In this document: piece by piece, positions 2,063-41,558 of the stretch | Layout of the letters: each line of letters opens with the position of its first letter | Position numbering within the stretch: the stretch's first letter is position 1 | Source: Bordetella parapertussis | GTDB taxonomy: Bacteria > Pseudomonadota > Gammaproteobacteria > Burkholderiales > Burkholderiaceae_B | Length of the DNA stretch: 45,406 bases | Assembly (NCBI GenBank): GCA_945887835.1 | Contig: CAMCZQ010000006.1 | Coordinates: 1 to 45,406 of the forward strand | Direction of reading: 5' to 3' | Notes under the pieces: model-generated | Seen by the model: the letters and a program-made list of their open reading frames with translations, nothing else | Databases searched by the model: none | What the model was told of the DNA's origin: nothing | Position numbers and translations under genes: made by a program

Positions 2063-2854
2063 ATGTCTGCGCGTACTTCTTCGCAATACCCGTTGTCCTT
2101 TAGCACACGCGGCAGGGGCCCCAACCTTTTGCTCATTCATGGCGGTACTGGGTCAAACAAGCATTGGATCCAAAACATCGATCACCTGTCCAAACACTTC
2201 TGCGTTTGGGCGATCGACCTACCGGGATTCGGAGAATCACCGCCACCGAGCGATGGTGTGGACTCAACAAACTACCTTGACCATGTCTTCGATTGCTTGC
2301 AACCATTTCCGTTTATGCATGAACCTCTCTTGATTGGCGCATTTTCTTTTGGCTCGGTTGTGGCGAGCGGCTTGGCGCTAAAACTTGGCTCACAGCTCAA
2401 AAAACTTAGCCTGATTGGCCCGGCGGGTTTCGGGGTCAAGCGTGACATACCTATTGACACCCGTAGTATGCGCAGCGCGGGTGATTCTATCCAAGCGCAA
2501 GAGGCTGTCATCCGCCACAATTTGAGAGCCATCATGCTCTATTACCCCGCGTCGATCACCAAAGAGATGGTAGAGATGCATAGATGGCACATCCAACAAA
2601 CCCGCTTTGATAGTCGCATCTTAAGCCTGACACCGCTCCTGTTGCAGAATTTAAAACAGGTTGCCTGTCCGTTACAGATCATGTGGGGCGAATACGATCA
2701 ATACGCATATCCCACCTTGCAGGCGCGCATGCAAGCAACACAACAAGCGCTGCCTACCGCACACCTAGCGAAGATCGCACGTGCTGGTCACTGGGCCCAG
2801 TATGAAAATGCTGAGGACACCAATCGAGCAATGTTAGATTTCTTTGAAAATTAG
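2063..2854 (+). CDS. Alpha/beta-fold hydrolase
   Basis: This is a 263-residue soluble hydrolase of the alpha/beta fold (MhpC/esterase-like group). The oxyanion-loop motif is HGGTGSNKHW at about 26-35, followed by DLPGFGES at 52-59. The nucleophile elbow is GAFSFGS, giving Ser95; the first position of the usual GxSxG is Ala. The acid is probably Asp212 in WGEYDQ and the base is His243 in RAGHWAQYEN. It starts four bases after the MmgE/PrpD stop with no convincing Shine-Dalgarno sequence, which suggests translation by coupling. There is no signal peptide. It probably cleaves an ester, amide or C-C bond in the same pathway as the PrpD protein; the substrate is not predictable from sequence alone. 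Confidence 0.88.
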   Translation: MSARTSSQYPLSFSTRGRGPNLLLIHGGTGSNKHWIQNIDHLSKHFCVWAIDLPGFGESPPPSDGVDSTNYLDHVFDCLQPFPFMHEPLLIGAFSFGSVVASGLALKLGSQLKKLSLIGPAGFGVKRDIPIDTRSMRSAGDSIQAQEAVIRHNLRAIMLYYPASITKEMVEMHRWHIQQTRFDSRILSLTPLLLQNLKQVACPLQIMWGEYDQYAYPTLQARMQATQQALPTAHLAKIARAGHWAQYENAEDTNRAMLDFFEN

Positions 2855-2885
2855 GATTCGAGCCAGACACCCTTAGCGCCAGCGC

Positions 2886-2902
2886 AACGCTTGCGCAGCG
2901 TT
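2886..2902. terminator. Hairpin between convergent genes (possible terminator)
   Basis: AACGCT and AGCGTT form a perfect six-base stem around a TGCGC loop, between the + strand hydrolase stop and the - strand acyl-CoA dehydrogenase stop, which it overlaps. No T-run follows on either strand, so it is not a classical intrinsic terminator. It may stabilise 3' ends or act weakly in both directions. Confidence 0.3.
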
Positions 2903-4049
2903 AACCGTTCAAAATTACGTGCCGCGCAATTTGCAAACGCTGCATCTCAGACGTGCCTTCACCAATTCGAAACGCCCGGACATCGCGATAGAACCTTTCA
3001 ACGGGTAAGTCTGCCATATACCCCGCCCCACCAAAAATCTGCATCACCTTATCAGCTACGCGCCCTGCCATTTCGCTTGCATATAACTTCGCGCGCGAGG
3101 CTGCAATACGAAACTCAACGCTGCCCTGATCGGCCAAATAGGCGGCCTTTTGCGTCAATAATCGTGCCGCATCCAACTCAACATCGTTGTCGGCCAACAT
3201 AAACTGAATCGCCTGATGTTCTGACAAGGCAGAGCCAAACGTTTTGCGTTGGCGTACGTGGGGCAAGACCAGGTCAGTGAGAGCTTGGGCGATGCCAACG
3301 CACTTGCATGCCACCATCAAGCGATCATTATTAATGGTCGCCATCATGGTTAAAAAACCTTCGCCCGGTTGCCCCAGCACGTGGGTATCCGCAACAAAGC
3401 ATTCATCAAGTGCCAGTTCTGATAACGGGTGACCATGCCAACCCATTTTGCGAAAACGCCTGAGGGTCTTCCAGCCGGGATTGTTGCGCTCGATAATAAA
3501 CGTTGTGAACCGAGACTTAAGCGGTGCCAGCTTGTCAGTGACAGCCAGCACGATTAAATGATCGGCATGCTCGGCTGCTGAAATAAAGTGCTTCGTACCA
3601 TTGAGGCGCCAGCCATCGGGCACTTGCTCAGCGCGCGTGGCAACTGCTGAGAGATCAGAGCCGGCGGCTGGCTCGGTCAAAGCATAGGCAATGGTGGTCT
3701 GGGCTTGCATTAAGGGCTTCACAAGCCATTCACGCTGTTCAGCGTTGGCCGCCCGTAACGATCCCGGCAAGTGCCCAAAGGCCTCAGCCAGAGGCATGGT
3801 GGTATGCCCAAGTGCTTCATCAATGAGGCATTGTGCCTCGACGCTTAAATCGGGTCCGCCTAACGCGGCAGGCATGTTGTAGCCAAACAGGCCCAAGGCG
3901 ATCACCTCTTGTTTTAACGCACGAATCACCAAGGGATCAATCTCATCGGCTGCGTCAATGCCGGCCTCAAGTGGGGCGAGTCGCTCTTTAATAAAGCGTC
4001 GCACCGTATCTGCAACAAGTTTGTTTTCGCTACTGATTTCAAAATTCAT
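2901..4049 (-). CDS. Acyl-CoA dehydrogenase family protein
   Basis: This is a 382-residue FAD flavoenzyme that introduces an alpha-beta double bond into an acyl-CoA. The N-terminal helical domain is followed by the FAD/substrate motif YALTEPAAGSDLSAVATRA and the LNGTKHFISAA strand. The helical C-terminal domain contains QIFGGAGYMADLPVERFYRD and ends in IGEGTSEMQRLQIARHVI, where Glu364 matches the catalytic base of the short/medium-chain and aryl-CoA type enzymes. Length is normal for the family. The start ATG has GTGAGAAAAA upstream. It is transcribed away from the acyl-CoA ligase at 4228, so the two may share a control region. It most likely oxidises the CoA ester produced by the neighbouring ligases; electrons would pass to an ETF not encoded here. 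Confidence 0.93.
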   Translation of the reverse strand: MNFEISSENKLVADTVRRFIKERLAPLEAGIDAADEIDPLVIRALKQEVIALGLFGYNMPAALGGPDLSVEAQCLIDEALGHTTMPLAEAFGHLPGSLRAANAEQREWLVKPLMQAQTTIAYALTEPAAGSDLSAVATRAEQVPDGWRLNGTKHFISAAEHADHLIVLAVTDKLAPLKSRFTTFIIERNNPGWKTLRRFRKMGWHGHPLSELALDECFVADTHVLGQPGEGFLTMMATINNDRLMVACKCVGIAQALTDLVLPHVRQRKTFGSALSEHQAIQFMLADNDVELDAARLLTQKAAYLADQGSVEFRIAASRAKLYASEMAGRVADKVMQIFGGAGYMADLPVERFYRDVRAFRIGEGTSEMQRLQIARHVILNG

Positions 4050-34923: not shown

Positions 34924-36783
34924 TCACATTTGTTCAAACTCTGCAATGCAAGCCAAAATCGAGTCGCCATACGACTCGAGTTTTTTGATGCCTACACCGT
35001 TCACGTGCGACAAGGCTTCAAGGCTAGCAGGCCTGGCGCGGGCGATCTCGCCTAAAGTCGCATTTTGAAAAATGACGTAGGCGGGCACGCCATGGCTACG
35101 GGCGATCTCGGCGCGCCAACTGCGCAAGGCTTCAAAGACAGGCAGGGCTGCCAGCGGCAGGTCGGGCGGCAGCGACTTGGCACGCGGCGCGGCCGGGCTT
35201 CGCCCTGCACGTTCAGTTAGGCGTGCGGCCTCGCGTCGCAGCAGCAGCGTGCGTTCGCCCTTCAAGACTGCGCGACTTTGATCGGTCAGGGCGAGCGTGC
35301 CATAGCCCTCTTGATCGACCATCAGCAAGCTATGCGCGAGCAGTTGTCGCAACACACTGCGCCAGGCTTGCTCAGACAAGTCTTGGCCGATTCCAAAGAC
35401 CGTCAACGCACTGTGCCCGTGCTCTAGGACGCGAGGCGTTTGCTTGCCTCGCAAAATATCAATTAAGTGACCAGCGCCATAGCGCTGTCCGCGCTCTTTC
35501 CAGAGTCGGTAAATCGTCGACAGCATTTTTTGAGCGGCGACCGTGCCGTCCCACGCCTGAGGCGGCGTCAGGCAATTATCGCAATTCCCGCAAGCCGACA
35601 TTGACTGACCAAAGTATTGCAGCAGACGCTCGCGCCGACACGTAATGGTTTCGCATAAGCCCAACATGGCATCGAGTTGTGAACCCAGTCGACGCCTGAA
35701 GGCGTCATCACCGCTCGACTCGTCGATCATGCGGCGTTGTTGCACGACGTCTTGCAAACCGTAAGCCAGCCAGGCAGTCGCGGGTAAACCATCACGCCCG
35801 GCCCGCCCGGTTTCTTGGTAATAGCCTTCGACCGACTTGGGCAGATCGATGTGGGCCACAAAGCGTACATCAGGCTTATCGATTCCCATGCCAAACGCGA
35901 TCGTCGCCACCATCACAATGCCGTCTTCACGCAGAAACCGAGACTGGTTTTTGGCCCGAAGCGCCGCGCCCAACCCGGCGTGATAGGGCAAGGCCTCGAT
36001 GCCTTGTTCGCACAAAAAGGCGGCGGTCTCGTCAACTTTGTTGCGCGACAAACAATAGACAATCCCCGCATCGCCGGCATGCTCTTGGCGCAACAGTTGT
36101 AAGAGTTGCTTGCGCACCTCTTGTTTTTCGACAATGTGATAGCGAATATTGGGCCGATCAAAACTTGCGACAAAGTGCTGCGCGTCGTGTAAAGCCAAGC
36201 GTTCGGCGATCTCGCTGCGGGTCACATCGGTGGCAGTGGCCGTGAGTGCTAGGCGCGGCACTTCGGGCCAGCGTTCGTGCAACATCGACAAGCCCAGGTA
36301 TTCGGGTCTAAAGTCGTGCCCCCACTGTGACACGCAATGGGCCTCGTCGATCGCGAACAACGCCAGCTTGCCACGCGAAAGCAGTTGCAGGCAACGCTCG
36401 GTCAACAACCGCTCGGGCGCCACGTAAAGTAAGTCGAGTTCACCGGCTAAAAAAGCCTGCTCGACCTCGCGCGAATCCGGCCAGTCTTGGGTTGAGTTTA
36501 AAAAAGCGGCCCGCACGCCCAGTTCGGTCAACGCGTCGACTTGATCTTGCATCAAAGCAATCAAAGGCGACACGACAATGCCGACACCTGCACGAACAAG
36601 CGCAGGGACTTGATAACAAAGGGATTTTCCACCGCCCGTGGGCATCAGAACGAGGGCATCGCCCCCACCAATCACGTGCTCAATAATTGCCTGCTGATCA
36701 CCCCGAAAGGCTTCATAGCCAAACACGCGAGCCAACACCCTGGCGGCACCACTTTTGGCTTTTGAATCAGTCAGCATTGTCAT
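34924..36783 (-). CDS. recQ: ATP-dependent DNA helicase RecQ
   Basis: This is a 619-residue 3'-5' DNA helicase. Motif I is [17 protein letters not shown] (about 47-63), motif II is [20 protein letters not shown] (DEAH 146-149), and the aromatic-rich loop is intact within that stretch. Motif VI is [12 protein letters not shown]. The zinc-binding cysteines follow in [24 protein letters not shown], then the winged-helix domain and a C-terminal HRDC domain with [18 protein letters not shown]. This is the full bacterial RecQ layout. The start is probably ATG 36783 (or 36777); an in-frame start at 36840 adds non-conserved residues. It is divergent from the response-regulator gene. Confidence 0.94.
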
Positions 36784-36890
36784 GCCGGTATTGTAGGGGA
36801 TTGCGAAGTGTCTACAGGCAAGCGCACAAGATCGTTTCAATTGATTTCAAGACGCTTGCCCAAACCCGCGCCACGTTGCACACTCTGAGG

Positions 36891-37607
36891 ATGGACTCAC
36901 GAACTAGCCTTGAAGCGCGCGTAAAAATTTTAGTGGTCGACGACGATCCCGCACTGCGTCAGTTGCTGGCAGACTATCTGAACAAGCACGGGTTTGATAC
37001 GCTGGTTGCGCCCGACGCGACCGATTTGCCTGCCCGTATTTTGCGTTTTGCCCCCGAACTCCTTGTGCTTGATCGCATGATGCCAGGCATCGATGGCGCC
37101 GAAGCGTGTCGAGCCTTGCGCGCGCAGGGCGAAGATATCCCGGTCATTCTTCTCACCGCGCGCGATGAGGCCGTTGACCGTATCATCGGCCTCGAAGCAG
37201 GTGCCGACGATTATGTTGGCAAACCTTTTGATCCGCGCGAATTGCTCGCCCGTATTCAAGCTGTACTGCGCCGCAAGCGTGGCGCGTCGGCCTTAACCAA
37301 AAATGCACCTGTGCAATTTGGTGCGTTCACGTTTGATCCCGTTATGCGTCAACTCACGCGCGACGCTGAGGTGGTCAAACTGACCGGTGGCGAAATCAAT
37401 TTGCTCGAAGCCTTGATTCGCAATCCCGGCAAGCCCTTATCGCGAGAAAAACTGCTCACCCTTGCGCGCGATGACGAGTCGGGCGAGCGTAACGACCGCG
37501 CCATTGATATCGCGATTTTGCGCCTGCGTCGCGCGCTTGAAGACGACCCTAAACAGCCACGCTGGATTCAAACCGTCTGGGGCACCGGCTATCGTTTTTC
37601 GCCGTGA
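36891..37607 (+). CDS. OmpR-family response regulator
   Basis: This is a 238-residue transcription regulator. The receiver domain has the acidic pocket VVDDDPALRQ at 15-24, the phospho-acceptor Asp61 in LLVLDRMMPGIDG, and the conserved Lys111 in VGKPFDPREL. The C-terminal winged-helix domain has LTGGEINLLEALIRNPGKPLSRE and ends GTGYRFSP, as in OmpR. The ATG is immediately preceded by GAGG with no spacing, so translation initiation may be inefficient. It overlaps the kinase gene by four bases and is its cognate partner. The similarity is to OmpR, but the regulated genes are unknown. Confidence 0.9.
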   Translation: MDSRTSLEARVKILVVDDDPALRQLLADYLNKHGFDTLVAPDATDLPARILRFAPELLVLDRMMPGIDGAEACRALRAQGEDIPVILLTARDEAVDRIIGLEAGADDYVGKPFDPRELLARIQAVLRRKRGASALTKNAPVQFGAFTFDPVMRQLTRDAEVVKLTGGEINLLEALIRNPGKPLSREKLLTLARDDESGERNDRAIDIAILRLRRALEDDPKQPRWIQTVWGTGYRFSP

Positions 37608-39115
37608 ACATGCTTACGTTTTTTCTGCCGCAATCGTTTCGCTCACGGTTGGTGTTATTGGTGCTGGCGACCGTGCTGGCGGGGCAGGCGGCCACCCTTT
37701 ACCTTGTCTCGGTGTATCAACGCGATCATGCCCAAACGGTTGCTTTGGATTTATTAGCAACAACCATACGCACGTTGCAATATTCGATGGAACACGTGCC
37801 GCCACCCGAACGGGCCGAGTTTGTTCGCCAGGCGTCACAAGGCCAATGGCGCCTGTGGGCCAAGCCTTTGCCCAACGAGGCCAGATTGCAGCGCCGGGCC
37901 ATACGCCCCGACCAGGCCGCGACCCGGATGCCCCAGCCTAAAGACGGTCAAACACCACGCCCCCCGCCTCCCGCGTCCACGGCGAATCCAAACCGAGCTT
38001 TACCGTTTGAAGCGCCCTCGGGCTTGGCGCCTGCCAAACCATTGTCACGCGAAACAGTCGCCAGCGACGACGTCAGGCGCGGCCTGGCCAGACTGATTGG
38101 CCGCCTGAACAATCGCTTAAGCGGTGACAGTCGCGTGGCACTCTCACGTGGGCCTACCCCAGAAATTTTTATTTCACTTACCCGCAGCACTGAAGAACAA
38201 ACGCCTCGTCAACGCGAATGGCTGGTGATTCCACTTGATCGCATCGACCCCCCTGTGGCGACGTCGCTGATTATTTGGTGGCTCAGCGGACTTGCTCTGG
38301 TGTTGCTGATTGCCGCCTGGTTCTCTTGGCACATCACACGCCCGATCACCCGACTGGTTGATGCGACAGACCGCCTCGCCGCAGGCAAGCCCGCACGTGT
38401 TGAGCCCGCGGGCCCCGCCGAAATCAAACGTCTGGGCGAACGCTTTAACGCCATGCTTGAGGCGCTCAGCCAGTCAGAGGCGACGCGACGCACCTTATTG
38501 GCAGGGCTGCCGCACGATCTCAAAGCGCCGTTATCGCGAATGTGGCTACGCATTGAGATGACCGATGACGTATCTTTGAAAGATGGCATGCGTAAAGACC
38601 TGAAAGATATGCAACACATGGTCGATCAGTTTATTCAATATGTCAGAGGTTCAGATTCCGCCACGTATCACTTTACGACGTTTGCACTCAACGAGTGGGT
38701 GCTTGAACGAGTCGCAAACTGGCATGGCGCTCGCAGCGCAGTGGTGCTGGTCGGCGTGCCTGAGGCGGTTCGGGTCAACGCGGATAGTGTGGCACTTTCG
38801 CGCCTGCTAGACAATTTAATCAGCAACGCCTTGCATCACGGCGCGCCTCCGGTCGAGATCACACTGACCACACTGGACCACTGGGCGGTCATGACTGTAA
38901 GCGATCACGGCGCAGGAATCGCTCCAGAACAGCGCGCCGAGGCGCTCAAGCCTTTTGTGCGACTCGACCAGGCCCGCACGCGAACCGGCAACGTCGGCTT
39001 AGGCCTCGCGCTAACAGAGGCAATCGCTCAGGCTCACGGCGGCACACTCACCCTCGATCGGGCAGAGCATGGTGGCCTGAGCGTCGAGATTCGTCTACCC
39101 AGAGCCCCAACGTAG
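37604..39115 (+). CDS. EnvZ-like sensor histidine kinase
   Basis: This is a 503-residue inner-membrane kinase. Two membrane helices (about 14-37 and 218-241) bound a periplasmic domain of about 180 residues. HAMP follows (WHITRPITRLVDATDRLAAGKPARV), then the H-box LPHDLKAPLSRMWLRIEM with His304, the N-box LLDNLISNALHHG, the G1 box DHGAGIAPEQ and the G2 box NVGLGLALTEAIAQAHGG. The periplasmic part contains a Pro- and Ala-rich stretch (about 86-148) not seen in E. coli EnvZ as I recall it. The start is GTG 37604, overlapping the regulator stop; ATG 37610 is an alternative. It converges on cydB with nine bases between. Confidence 0.9.
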   Translation: MNMLTFFLPQSFRSRLVLLVLATVLAGQAATLYLVSVYQRDHAQTVALDLLATTIRTLQYSMEHVPPPERAEFVRQASQGQWRLWAKPLPNEARLQRRAIRPDQAATRMPQPKDGQTPRPPPPASTANPNRALPFEAPSGLAPAKPLSRETVASDDVRRGLARLIGRLNNRLSGDSRVALSRGPTPEIFISLTRSTEEQTPRQREWLVIPLDRIDPPVATSLIIWWLSGLALVLLIAAWFSWHITRPITRLVDATDRLAAGKPARVEPAGPAEIKRLGERFNAMLEALSQSEATRRTLLAGLPHDLKAPLSRMWLRIEMTDDVSLKDGMRKDLKDMQHMVDQFIQYVRGSDSATYHFTTFALNEWVLERVANWHGARSAVVLVGVPEAVRVNADSVALSRLLDNLISNALHHGAPPVEITLTTLDHWAVMTVSDHGAGIAPEQRAEALKPFVRLDQARTRTGNVGLGLALTEAIAQAHGGTLTLDRAEHGGLSVEIRLPRAPT

Positions 39116-39124
39116 TCTCGCACG

Positions 39125-40150
39125 TTAAGGCGCCCGACCGAACAGGCCCCGATAGGTCATCAAATTAAAAATTACCATGATGGGCAAGACCACGATCGTG
39201 GCCGCTAGCACAAGTTGTAACGAACCCAGTGCTGACGCGGCATCCCATAAGGTGAGTGTATCCAGAACGAAGAACGGAAACATGCTGTAAGTCAACCCGC
39301 CCAGCATCGCGACAAACAAAAGCCAACAGAGCGTAAACGGTAACCAGACTAACGAGCGATAACGAGACTGCGTCACGCGGGTCAGACTCATATCAATTCC
39401 GACAAAACACCCAAGCATCAGCAGCCAAATCGGAGCGGCCAGCACAAGGTTGGTCGCACTACTCCATTTATAAAAAATAGCAGGGTTCGCAAGACCCAAA
39501 GCGATTGAGAGCGCAACCATGCCTGCAGCCGCCCAACGAATCGCGTGCCGAGCCCAACGGGCTGCAAAAAGCTGCAGGTCGCCCTGCAGTCGCATCACAA
39601 GCCAGCAGGCGCCCAACAGGGCATAGGCCGTCACGGTGCAAAGGGCAATAAAAACAGTGACCCAGCGTTCGGGGGTATCTTGTTTGAGACCCAACACCAA
39701 CTGGGCTAACACGCCCCCATGCCCCAAGGCCGTCAGCAGCGAGCCGAGCCAGAACAAGGCGATCCAGCGGTCTCGCTTTTCGGTGGCGGCGCGAATCCTA
39801 AACTCAAACGCGACGCTGCGCAGCATCACCCCCAGCACCGTCAGTGACATGGGCACATAAAGCGCTCCCAAGACTGCTCCCCACGCTAAAGGAAACGCGG
39901 CCAAAAATAAGCCCACGGCCAGCAGCCACCAAAACCCATTGGCATCGCGCCAGGGGCTCAAAGCGACCATCAATTGCGAACGCGCGTGTCTGGGTGCCAA
40001 CAGCACCAGCACACCAACGCCAATATCAAACCCGTCGAACAACGCGCCGCCTAGAATCAGTACAAAAAGTAACGCCATCATGAGCAAAGGCATCCAGAAA
40101 GACGGCGCACTCGCGCTTAAGCCCAGCGAAGCTGCCAGTGCGTCGATCAT
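39125..40150 (-). CDS. cydB: Cytochrome bd-like subunit II (CydB/CioB family)
   Basis: This is a 341-residue membrane protein with about eight or nine hydrophobic helices. It has the CydB marks GGALFDGFDIGVGVLVLLAP near the N-terminus, SPWRDANGFWWLLAVGLFLAAFPLAW where cytochrome bd has the conserved Asp, and a C-terminal LTLWDAASALGSLQLVLAATIVVLP. ATG 40150 overlaps the upstream subunit I gene by four bases. It is somewhat shorter than E. coli CydB. It pairs with the divergent subunit I described next; no CydX-like small gene and no cydDC genes are nearby. The longer reading frame up to 40324 is overlap with cydA and is not used. Confidence 0.88.
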   Translation of the reverse strand: MIDALAASLGLSASAPSFWMPLLMMALLFVLILGGALFDGFDIGVGVLVLLAPRHARSQLMVALSPWRDANGFWWLLAVGLFLAAFPLAWGAVLGALYVPMSLTVLGVMLRSVAFEFRIRAATEKRDRWIALFWLGSLLTALGHGGVLAQLVLGLKQDTPERWVTVFIALCTVTAYALLGACWLVMRLQGDLQLFAARWARHAIRWAAAGMVALSIALGLANPAIFYKWSSATNLVLAAPIWLLMLGCFVGIDMSLTRVTQSRYRSLVWLPFTLCWLLFVAMLGGLTYSMFPFFVLDTLTLWDAASALGSLQLVLAATIVVLPIMVIFNLMTYRGLFGRAP

Positions 40151-41487
40151 GGTCGCATCCCGGGTTTGCGCACGGGCACCACGCCAAAGCGCGCAGCATG
40201 CCACAAAAGCTGAATAAAGCCCGTCACCATCAATGCATAACAAGCAAGGGCTGCGGCCAGCACCCACGCAAGTGTCGCGGGCGGGGCCTGGACGACCGCG
40301 TCTTGCTGAAGCAGACTGCCCCACACCAAGTAAGGTGCACGCCCTAGATCAGAAAGGTTCCAGTTCAAGAGCCAGGTCAAGGCACCCAAGCCGCCCGACC
40401 ACACCAGAGTGCGCAACAGCCATTTTGGATAACGCGCGGGCTCCAAGCCTTTTCGCAGCATGACAACCAGGGCGAACAACATGAGCGCGCTTGACAAGGC
40501 CCCGGCGAGTAACGCTGCACGCAAGAGCCAAAACAAGAGCACCACGGGGGGAAGCACCTCGCCGGTCAGGTCTAACCCCAGAAGGCTTTCGTTGGCCTGC
40601 CTGCCTAGCCATCTCTGCGCACTTAAGTCAGAGGCCAAAAAAACCGCAGTCGAGCGGGTTTTGACGTTGGGCGAACCCAGCCAGACCCACGCAGGTGAGG
40701 CCGAGCTATACCAATAGCCCACCTGCGCGGCGGCGACCGCCGGTTGATAGCGCGCCACCATTCGCGCATTGCCATCAAGCGCCGCCCAATAAAGTATCAA
40801 GGCGCACGAGGACACCAACACCCCTGCACGAAACGATAAGTGCTCACCCGCATCAAGCGGACGGCGCAGGGCTTGCCAGGCCGTGATGCTCAATAACAAG
40901 AAACCCGCAAACAAAAACGCCCCCGCCACGAAGCCCAACGAGCGCCACAAGACAAACGGCGTCAAAATCACCTCGCTCCATTCATACACCTGATAGCGAC
41001 CGTCGATCGGCGCGGCCCCGACTGGCGCCTGCGCCCACGTGTGCAGCACGACCACCCAAAACAAGGTCAGTGTCAAGCCAAGTGCCACCATTAGCACCGC
41101 AAAAAAATGAACTTTTGCAGACACGCGGCGCTGACCAAACAGCACGATGCCCATGAACAACGCTTTCGTAATAAAAAACGTGGCTAGCCCAAACGCCAAC
41201 AGCGGACCTGCGACGTTACCCGTGCGTTCAATCAGCGCGGGCCAGAGCGTGCCAAACTCAATCAACACGGGCAAAGCCGTCGCCAACGCCAAAAAAAACG
41301 ATAGCGCGAACGTTCTGACCCAAAAACGGTAGGCCGCTGTCCACCCCGACTCGGGGGCTTGCCAGGCCTGATAGCGAAACACACAAAGAATCCACCCCAA
41401 TGCCATCGCAAGCGCCGCGAACAAAACGTGCGCATTCAGACTGAGGGCGAACTGAATCCGTGCGAGAAAAAGTGTTGAAATTTCCAT
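40147..41487 (-). CDS. cydA: Cytochrome bd-like subunit I (CydA family), divergent, ligand residues missing
   Basis: This is a 446-residue multi-pass membrane protein of the CydA family. Landmarks are LARIQFALSLNAHVLF with His20 (matching the E. coli haem b595 ligand His19), the EFGTLWPALIERTGNVAGPLLAFG helix, VVLHTWAQAPVG (E. coli NGWMQNP), SEVILTPF, ITAW, and the C-terminal NLSDLGRAPY in place of the GRQPW block. By ungapped alignment to remembered E. coli CydA, the b558 ligands His186 and Met393, the helix acids Glu99 and Glu107, and the quinol-loop Lys252/Glu257 are all absent. E. coli CydA has 522 residues, so the quinol loop is also shortened. ATG 41487 is chosen on homology; there is no good ribosome site. 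It is likely to form a complex with cydB, but classical quinol oxidase activity is doubtful. Confidence 0.85.
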   Translation of the reverse strand: MEISTLFLARIQFALSLNAHVLFAALAMALGWILCVFRYQAWQAPESGWTAAYRFWVRTFALSFFLALATALPVLIEFGTLWPALIERTGNVAGPLLAFGLATFFITKALFMGIVLFGQRRVSAKVHFFAVLMVALGLTLTLFWVVVLHTWAQAPVGAAPIDGRYQVYEWSEVILTPFVLWRSLGFVAGAFLFAGFLLLSITAWQALRRPLDAGEHLSFRAGVLVSSCALILYWAALDGNARMVARYQPAVAAAQVGYWYSSASPAWVWLGSPNVKTRSTAVFLASDLSAQRWLGRQANESLLGLDLTGEVLPPVVLLFWLLRAALLAGALSSALMLFALVVMLRKGLEPARYPKWLLRTLVWSGGLGALTWLLNWNLSDLGRAPYLVWGSLLQQDAVVQAPPATLAWVLAAALACYALMVTGFIQLLWHAARFGVVPVRKPGMRP

Positions 41488-41558
41488 GATTCGGGCTAGT
41501 GTAGACCGGTCGTGGCAAAATGATCCTTTTAATACGGCTTCAATACTCAAAATCCTGT

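Follow-up and report, generated by a model that had tools for sequence, protein, structure and literature searches.

A gene pair of the cytochrome bd superfamily in the window (the whole stretch of DNA that was analysed, 45,406 nucleotides), which we call cydA*B*, probably encodes a maintained non-oxidase paralogue, or pseudo-oxidase, of short-loop cytochrome bd, and it is very unlikely that CydA*B* functions as a bd oxidase. The complex is probably no longer an oxidase because most or all of the points at which its iron cofactors would attach are gone, and ligand-depleted orthologues are present in at least 95 of the 151 sampled genomes of the family, drawn from 33 of 43 genera. If true, this conserved pseudo-oxidase would show that the bd fold can serve something other than O2 reduction, and the graded losses among its members offer a natural series for establishing which residues hold which haem.

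Reading frame, strand and coordinates of CydA* were verified in the window (446 amino acids, positions 40147 to 41487, minus strand), as were the intact cydB* gene for the partner subunit (341 amino acids, 39125 to 40150, minus strand) and the four-base ATGA overlap in which the cydA* stop meets the cydB* start (40147 to 40150, minus strand). CydA* matches the Pfam profile Cyt_bd_oxida_I (PF01654) with 260.8 bits over residues 8-434 and CydB* matches Cyt_bd_oxida_II (PF02322) with 175.6 bits; with full-length matches to both profiles and a CydA fold, the pair belongs by descent to the cytochrome bd superfamily. An AlphaFold2 model of window CydA*, computed as a single, haem-free chain from a 48-row alignment and so silent on haem binding, has a pLDDT of 89.8 and a pTM of 0.90. 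In a fold search, where rows with Z below 13 were disregarded, this model matched E. coli cytochrome bd-I and bd-II at Z 43.5-47.6 (bd-II CydA, 7ose_A: Z 47.6 with 430 residues aligned), the next-best fold being that of alternative complex III subunits at Z 18.5-20.4. We infer that CydA* keeps the bd fold and sits as a heterodimer with CydB*. Another contig of the same genome carries a second, canonical CydA (L001) with all ligands present.

Residues are numbered here after E. coli CydA (K-12 record). In cytochrome bd a conserved His and a conserved Met bind haem b558, a conserved Glu sits on the orthogonal haem and a conserved His on the other, and Glu107, more than 90% conserved, is the proposed terminal proton donor, as set out in the relevant passages of PMC8951039 and PMC13189123; a passage in PMC5322542 terms the haem ligands of bd invariant and names Glu99, His186 and Met393. 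Aligned to E. coli CydA, window CydA* has neither b558 ligand, with G185 in place of His186 (codon at 40933 to 40935; this and all following codons are on the minus strand) and A325 in place of Met393 (40513 to 40515). Neither of the O2-side and proton acids is present, Glu99 corresponding to G100 (41188 to 41190) and Glu107 to K108 (41164 to 41166), and by both translation and alignment the quinol loop reads QPAVAAAQVG (40717 to 40746), so that Lys252 and Glu257 are both Val (V251 and V256). Arg391 is present as R323. As for the high-spin haem ligands, His19 is present as H20 (41428 to 41430) and Glu445 is replaced by D380, which together with R383 at the Arg448 position (40339 to 40350) may be the remnant of a high-spin haem site. 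A possible new ligand is H149 (41041 to 41043), at the position of Asn148; an alignment of the closest relatives has it in the window and all six of them, and His is found there in 10 of 131 clade sequences.

These alignments bear out what a sequence-only reading had claimed about the loss of Glu99, Glu107, His186 and Met393 and about the altered quinol loop. That reading had also taken His20 to be the only ligand left, and here it was slightly off: H20 is present, but so are D380 and R383. Ligands supplied from elsewhere in the chain, which it had named as the case against itself, were not found at Glu99, Glu107 or His186 in the window alignment. For the window, H149 and D380 apart, we rejected misalignment or relocated ligands as an explanation after aligning 63, 112 and 172 sequences in turn and scanning for nearby His and acidic residues.

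To place the window protein among its relatives we searched the 151 family genomes with it and then read the loci. Note that the tally of 95 genomes is a minimum, with some weak matches (for example in G088 and G145) left unread, and that it includes one fragment at a contig edge and one truncated copy. Named records come from Bordetella, Achromobacter, Alcaligenes, Pusillimonas, Candidimonas, Sheuella, Jezberella and others and, among the best 80 of 179 confirmed loci, six MAGs are 78-80% identical to window CydA*. The window's branch is a freshwater one, judging by record names.

Across 131 distinct clade sequences, Glu99, Glu107, His186 and Glu257 are each retained in none, and at position 107 there is Lys in 128 of them and Arg in the remaining 3. 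Retention elsewhere is graded: Met393 is found in 11 sequences, His19 in 14, Arg448 in 13 and an acid at 445 in 15 (Glu in 7, Asp in 8), Lys252 in 98 (Lys or Arg in 115, the window not among them) and Arg391 in 130. When the six ligand and acid residues are counted together, 106 sequences retain none, 19 retain one, five retain two and one retains three. His19, the acid at 445 and Arg448 behave as a unit, all present in 12 of 131, all absent in 115 and mixed in only 4; the 12 with the whole trio belong either to the window's branch or to the deep branch L037 (genome G008), which retains His19, Met393, Glu445 and Arg448. At Glu99 and Glu107, none of the 131 sequences has an acid up to 4 columns to either side. 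Around His186, four sequences (the window not among them) have a His no more than 7 columns away, and 57 (the window has none) have a His, a Met or a Cys no more than 3 columns away, most commonly a Met at 184 (34 of 131). In principle such a Met, or another Met, Cys or His close to 186, might do the job in some members.

Is this simply what a fast-evolving protein looks like? We took the 118 positions whose conservation in 31 intact sequences is 96% or higher. In 103 clade members, the six ligand and acid positions among them average 5.2% retention, versus 63.7% for the other 112 (permutation p about 1e-4). The released constraint falls on haem sites. At the same time new residues have become near-fixed: position 72 is Pro (window P73) in 129 of 131, position 57 is Arg (window R58) in 131 of 131 as well as in 3 of 41 intact sequences, and in CydB, among 103 clade members, Trp57 has given way to Arg in 99%, Asp105 to Glu in 100% and Lys109 to Arg in 100% (window R68, E116 and R120).

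The sequence-only reading had looked to an orthologous clade with the same losses and conserved cydB pairing for support, and such a clade exists: its 131 sequences have cydB adjoining, and in a CydA tree of 66 sequences (46 from the clade, 19 intact, and E. coli), made from an alignment that took in the ligand columns themselves, the clade is one branch with support 100/100 and a stem of 0.92 changes per column. A CydB* tree of 60 loci, obtained by a quick search, gives the same split (SH-aLRT 100). On the CydA tree a single change each is needed at residues 99, 107 and 186, compared with three at 19, two at 445, four at 448 and five at 393; L037, the window's branch, the main lineage and the long-branched L073 meet at a poorly supported base. 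Profile searches of 300 genomes of the order and 369 of the class, which as a rule scored at most five (order) or four (class) candidates per genome, gave no non-family match above 433 bits, versus 556 for the window. The best-scoring non-family sequences, those that were read, have every ligand (24 of 24 and 10 of 10).

The gene had been judged not to be decaying, and dN/dS values of 0.06-0.16 in 13 CydA* pairs agree. For CydB*, dN/dS is 0.04-0.13 in the 11 of 13 pairs where it is computable. Synonymous saturation is reached or nearly reached in the other two pairs, as it partly is in the six pairs that involve the window. CydA* is 443-448 amino acids long in 122 of 131 distinct copies, and the four-base overlap with cydB* recurs in 80 of 80 named loci and in 99 of 109 others (these with some duplicates), the ten exceptions being G008 twice (a gap of 2), L063 and L199-L203 (a gap of 10), the truncated L191 and the out-of-frame L011. 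In the clade conservation is stronger in CydB than in CydA, whereas intact oxidases show the opposite: mean pair identity is 0.530 for CydA and 0.612 for CydB in the clade, with CydA the lower in 94.9% of pairs among 103 members, compared with 0.641 and 0.578 in intact oxidases, where CydA is lower in 7.9% of pairs among 29 sequences. Three genomes each rated 99% complete (G042, G128 and G006) have CydA* as the sole CydA-family gene found in a Pfam search.

At the window locus, cydA* is divided from the divergent glnS by a gap of 71 bases (41488 to 41558, taking the glnS start as 41559). A histidine kinase gene (37604 to 39115, plus strand) converges on cydB* at a distance of 9 bases and is adjoined by an OmpR-type response regulator gene (36687 to 37607, plus strand, start uncertain), an arrangement that matches Bordetella ompR-risK. 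Divergent glnS lies beside cydA* in 35 of 36 loci, the remaining one (L067) stopping at a contig end; minD is nearby in 33 of the 36, a convergent response regulator in 25 and a histidine kinase in 23. The two-component system is no more than a candidate partner, the kinase being convergent and undetected by clustering in 13 of the 36 loci (some of them cut by a contig end), and the RisK-type kinase is only a lead. In twelve family genomes no intact copy had been seen. In five of these (G144, G127, G107, G126 and G023) the kinase stops some 70-175 bases short of glnS and cydAB is absent from the interval, G040 has a broken cydAB remnant at this place, and the other six (G108, G060, G022, G014, G012 and G034) gave no kinase or cydAB match within the roughly 1.5 kb examined. 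The kinase-glnS junctions that lack cydAB, two of them (G127 and G144) in the window's own genus, indicate that a clean loss of cydA*B*, or a failure to gain it, has occurred at least twice.

How did such a protein come about? By their sequences, Glu99, Glu107 (replaced by Lys), His186 and Glu257 were lost on the stem of the clade, so that the first to go were one b558 ligand, residues on the quinol and O2 sides and the terminal proton donor. In the main lineage His19, Glu445 and Arg448 then followed, and with them the known haem iron ligands, while the window's branch retained the trio as H20, D380 and R383. Such a CydA*B* would neither oxidise quinol at b558 nor reduce O2, and would instead work through features that are still selected, namely CydB*, a charged network between CydA and CydB, and a degenerate quinone loop. 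The network (CydA R54, R58 and K108; CydB D69, E116 and R120) would lie where the proton wire of E. coli runs. There the channel is made up of Lys53A, Lys57A, Asp105B, Asp58B, Glu107A and Glu74A, according to the relevant passage of PMC13189123. At these six positions the clade mostly has R, R, E, D, K and L (most intact relatives, too, lack Glu at position 74 and have Ser there), that is, the charges are mostly retained but end on a Lys, and we therefore read them as a salt-bridge cluster rather than a wire.

On balance we lean towards a family-wide branch of the bd superfamily that has turned into a membrane complex devoid of haem. Its new task would not depend on haem and would centre on CydB, together with a charged interface that has been rebuilt (Glu107 to Lys; in CydB, Trp57 to Arg). 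The window's branch and L037 would be living intermediates in a stripping of the cofactors in two steps. Judged by its residues, the main lineage is likely to be haem-free. The window's branch may hold one or two high-spin haems at most, in a remnant site; with H20, D380, R383 and the branch-specific H149 present, window CydA* could bind haem. As to what the complex does, our preference, a tentative one, is for a membrane regulator or scaffold that responds to quinone or proton-motive force, favoured by the slower evolution of CydB and by the Lys or Arg at 252 in 115 of 131 sequences (not the window). Our analysis turned up no partner, ligand or signal for this function. Of the three options offered by the sequence-only reading, then, the non-oxidase paralogue is the one we retain. 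Fewer haems is possible for the window, where H20, D380 and R383 are present, with no haem a better fit to the main lineage, and a different donor is the least likely, since the loss of both Glu99 and Glu107 in all 131 goes beyond the quinol-side residues.

Other explanations deserve consideration. The window's branch might be a reduced-haem complex responsive to gas or redox state, with one or two high-spin haems but without b558 (held by His20, Asp380 in place of Glu, Arg383 and perhaps His149), that senses or scavenges O2, NO or peroxide. This is an unlikely reading, although retention of the trio as a unit in 12 of 131 sequences, all of the window's branch or L037, and the invariance of H149 in the window and its six nearest relatives speak for it. 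Yet Glu99 and Glu107 are absent even from this branch and 115 of 131 sequences lack the whole trio, so that no function shared by the clade can need it. Much less probable is that CydA*B* has remained a terminal oxidase, one whose ligands are unusual or whose donor differs; Bordetella CydAB3 has been predicted to be an oxidase. Its bd fold and CydB partner, the Arg391 in 130 of 131, the Lys or Arg at 252 and the Met near position 186 in some relatives would fit an oxidase. Against it, none of the 131 has retained the O2-side acids or the b558 His, no acid stands near 99 or 107, and cyd3 could not be made to serve as sole oxidase, a result shared with four other loci in the passages of PMC11257404.

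Slightly less credible still is slow decay, a redundant oxidase drifting towards loss. It would account for the genomes in which the gene is missing (G060, G108, G127 and G144), the remnant in G040, the frameshifted cydB in G092 and the truncated L191. However, a drifting gene would be hard to reconcile with the low dN/dS, the uniform length of 122 of 131 copies, the new near-fixed residues (K108, P73 and, in CydB, R68, E116 and R120) and an occurrence across 33 genera, with glnS as neighbour at 35 of the 36 loci that were examined. Least plausible of all, in our estimation, is an accessory or regulatory subunit that joins canonical CydAB in a hetero-complex: the window's genome does have a canonical CydA to join, but by Pfam search CydA* is alone of its family in G042, G128 and G006, and CydA* copies bring their own cydB.

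Passages of PMC11257404 present B. bronchiseptica cydAB3 (BB4012-BB4011) as a predicted high-affinity bd oxidase, and call CydAB3 an oxidase with no mention, in those passages, of haem-ligand loss. They report that cydAB3 is intact in half of 14 B. pertussis strains, with a premature stop in cydB3 of strain 18323, that cyd3 transcription is low, that a single cyd3 deletion equals wild type in growth and mouse persistence, and that a strain with cyd3 alone was unobtainable, as were strains with cco, cio, ctaD2 or cyo2 alone. In the passages concerned, BB4011 is BP3224, that is cydB3 (PMC1891110), and the ompR-risK operon is BP3222-BP3223 (PMC5020355); the order of the locus numbers BP3222-BP3224 is the arrangement at the window locus. 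By simple arithmetic, the 2373-base cyd3 deletion stated in the source is off by no more than one base from what a cydA of 1341 bases and an overlap of 4 bases would give. Lastly, G092 has a ligand-depleted CydA* (L011) whose cydB*, given its usual start, is out of frame, resembling the defect reported for cydB3 of strain 18323. From locus order beside ompR-risK, deletion size and the G092 defect, Bordetella CydAB3 is very probably the same gene as CydA*B*, a member of the clade, and probably not an oxidase. The failure of cyd3 as sole oxidase is weak evidence here because four other loci failed too and cyd3 is poorly transcribed. The absence of cydA* from 4 of 7 genomes of the window's own genus, along with the broken cydB3 reported in some B. 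pertussis, indicates that cydA*B* is dispensable. If correct, the identification would mean recounting the terminal oxidases of Bordetella and probably those of its relatives.

How does CydA*B* compare with known systems? The best-scoring intact relatives are short-loop CydA proteins of the same order (L061 and L160-L183), mostly about 445-463 amino acids long like the window's and likewise encoded in a cydAB pair, which by length alone we take to be CIO-type. All ligands and Glu99, Glu107 and Glu257 are present in 24 of 24, and CydA is their more conserved subunit, opposite to the clade. E. coli bd-I and bd-II share fold and cydA-cydB gene order with CydA*B* but have the ligands, proton donor and quinol-loop residues that CydA* has mostly lost. 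In the classification of Murali et al. 2021, OR-C, OR-N and archaeal CydAA' are reportedly a precedent for members of the bd superfamily that can lack the quinol site, and, unlike CydA*, they are said to keep their active-site haems. In archaeal CydAA' a CydA paralogue replaces CydB, unlike CydA*, whose partner is a CydB (PF02322). The OR-C and OR-N families are also named within the superfamily in a passage of PMC13189123. The membrane subunits of alternative complex III, whose fold comes next to that of CydA*, are only 8-10% identical to it, and no Fe-S partner was seen beside the cydA*B* pair. These subunits are haem-free and lie on the quinone side. Among the literature matches listed, and the Murali 2021 classification aside, we found no description of a CydA without haem ligands, and a gene of the CydA* type is apparently listed as an oxidase in at least one published survey (PMC11257404). 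Haem-ligand-depleted CydA*B* is a variant within the known bd superfamily.

Two observations concern the ligand positions of the ligand-depleted CydA-like protein (CydA*). A deep-branching copy (L037, in genome G008) retains His19, Met393, Glu445 and Arg448, by E. coli CydA numbering, and has lost Glu99, Glu107 and His186; on its residues, it is a possible intermediate in ligand loss. In the window's own CydA*, codon 41041-41043 encodes His149, which aligns with E. coli Asn148 and is invariant in the window and its six nearest relatives among the matches listed, and which, judging from the alignment, could serve as a new ligand.

Some copies are damaged or shortened. In L011 (G092), the reading frame of cydB* (around 2801-3895) breaks off when followed from the usual overlap start, which fits the defect in cydB3, very probably the same gene, that has been reported for B. 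pertussis 18323 (PMC11257404). At the usual site upstream of glnS, G040 carries a cydA*B* remnant (L238), with matches covering only parts of both genes. The ligand-depleted CydA* of G143 (L191) is truncated to 384 aa; the genomes sampled from this genus (g24) yielded no other copy.

As for glnS itself, within the window's genus, genome G108 (contig C22) carries a pair of genes resembling glutaminyl-tRNA synthetase, one sharing 82% and the other 63% identity with the window's, and the glnS match at G060:C3:128890-130650 (L237) is reported to contain one internal TAA stop.

The neighbouring response regulator and kinase genes (window 36687-39115) look like the Bordetella ompR-risK operon and might have some link with the adjacent cydA*B* pair; in Bordetella, according to PMC5020355, RisA, the target of RisK, controls many Bvg-repressed genes.
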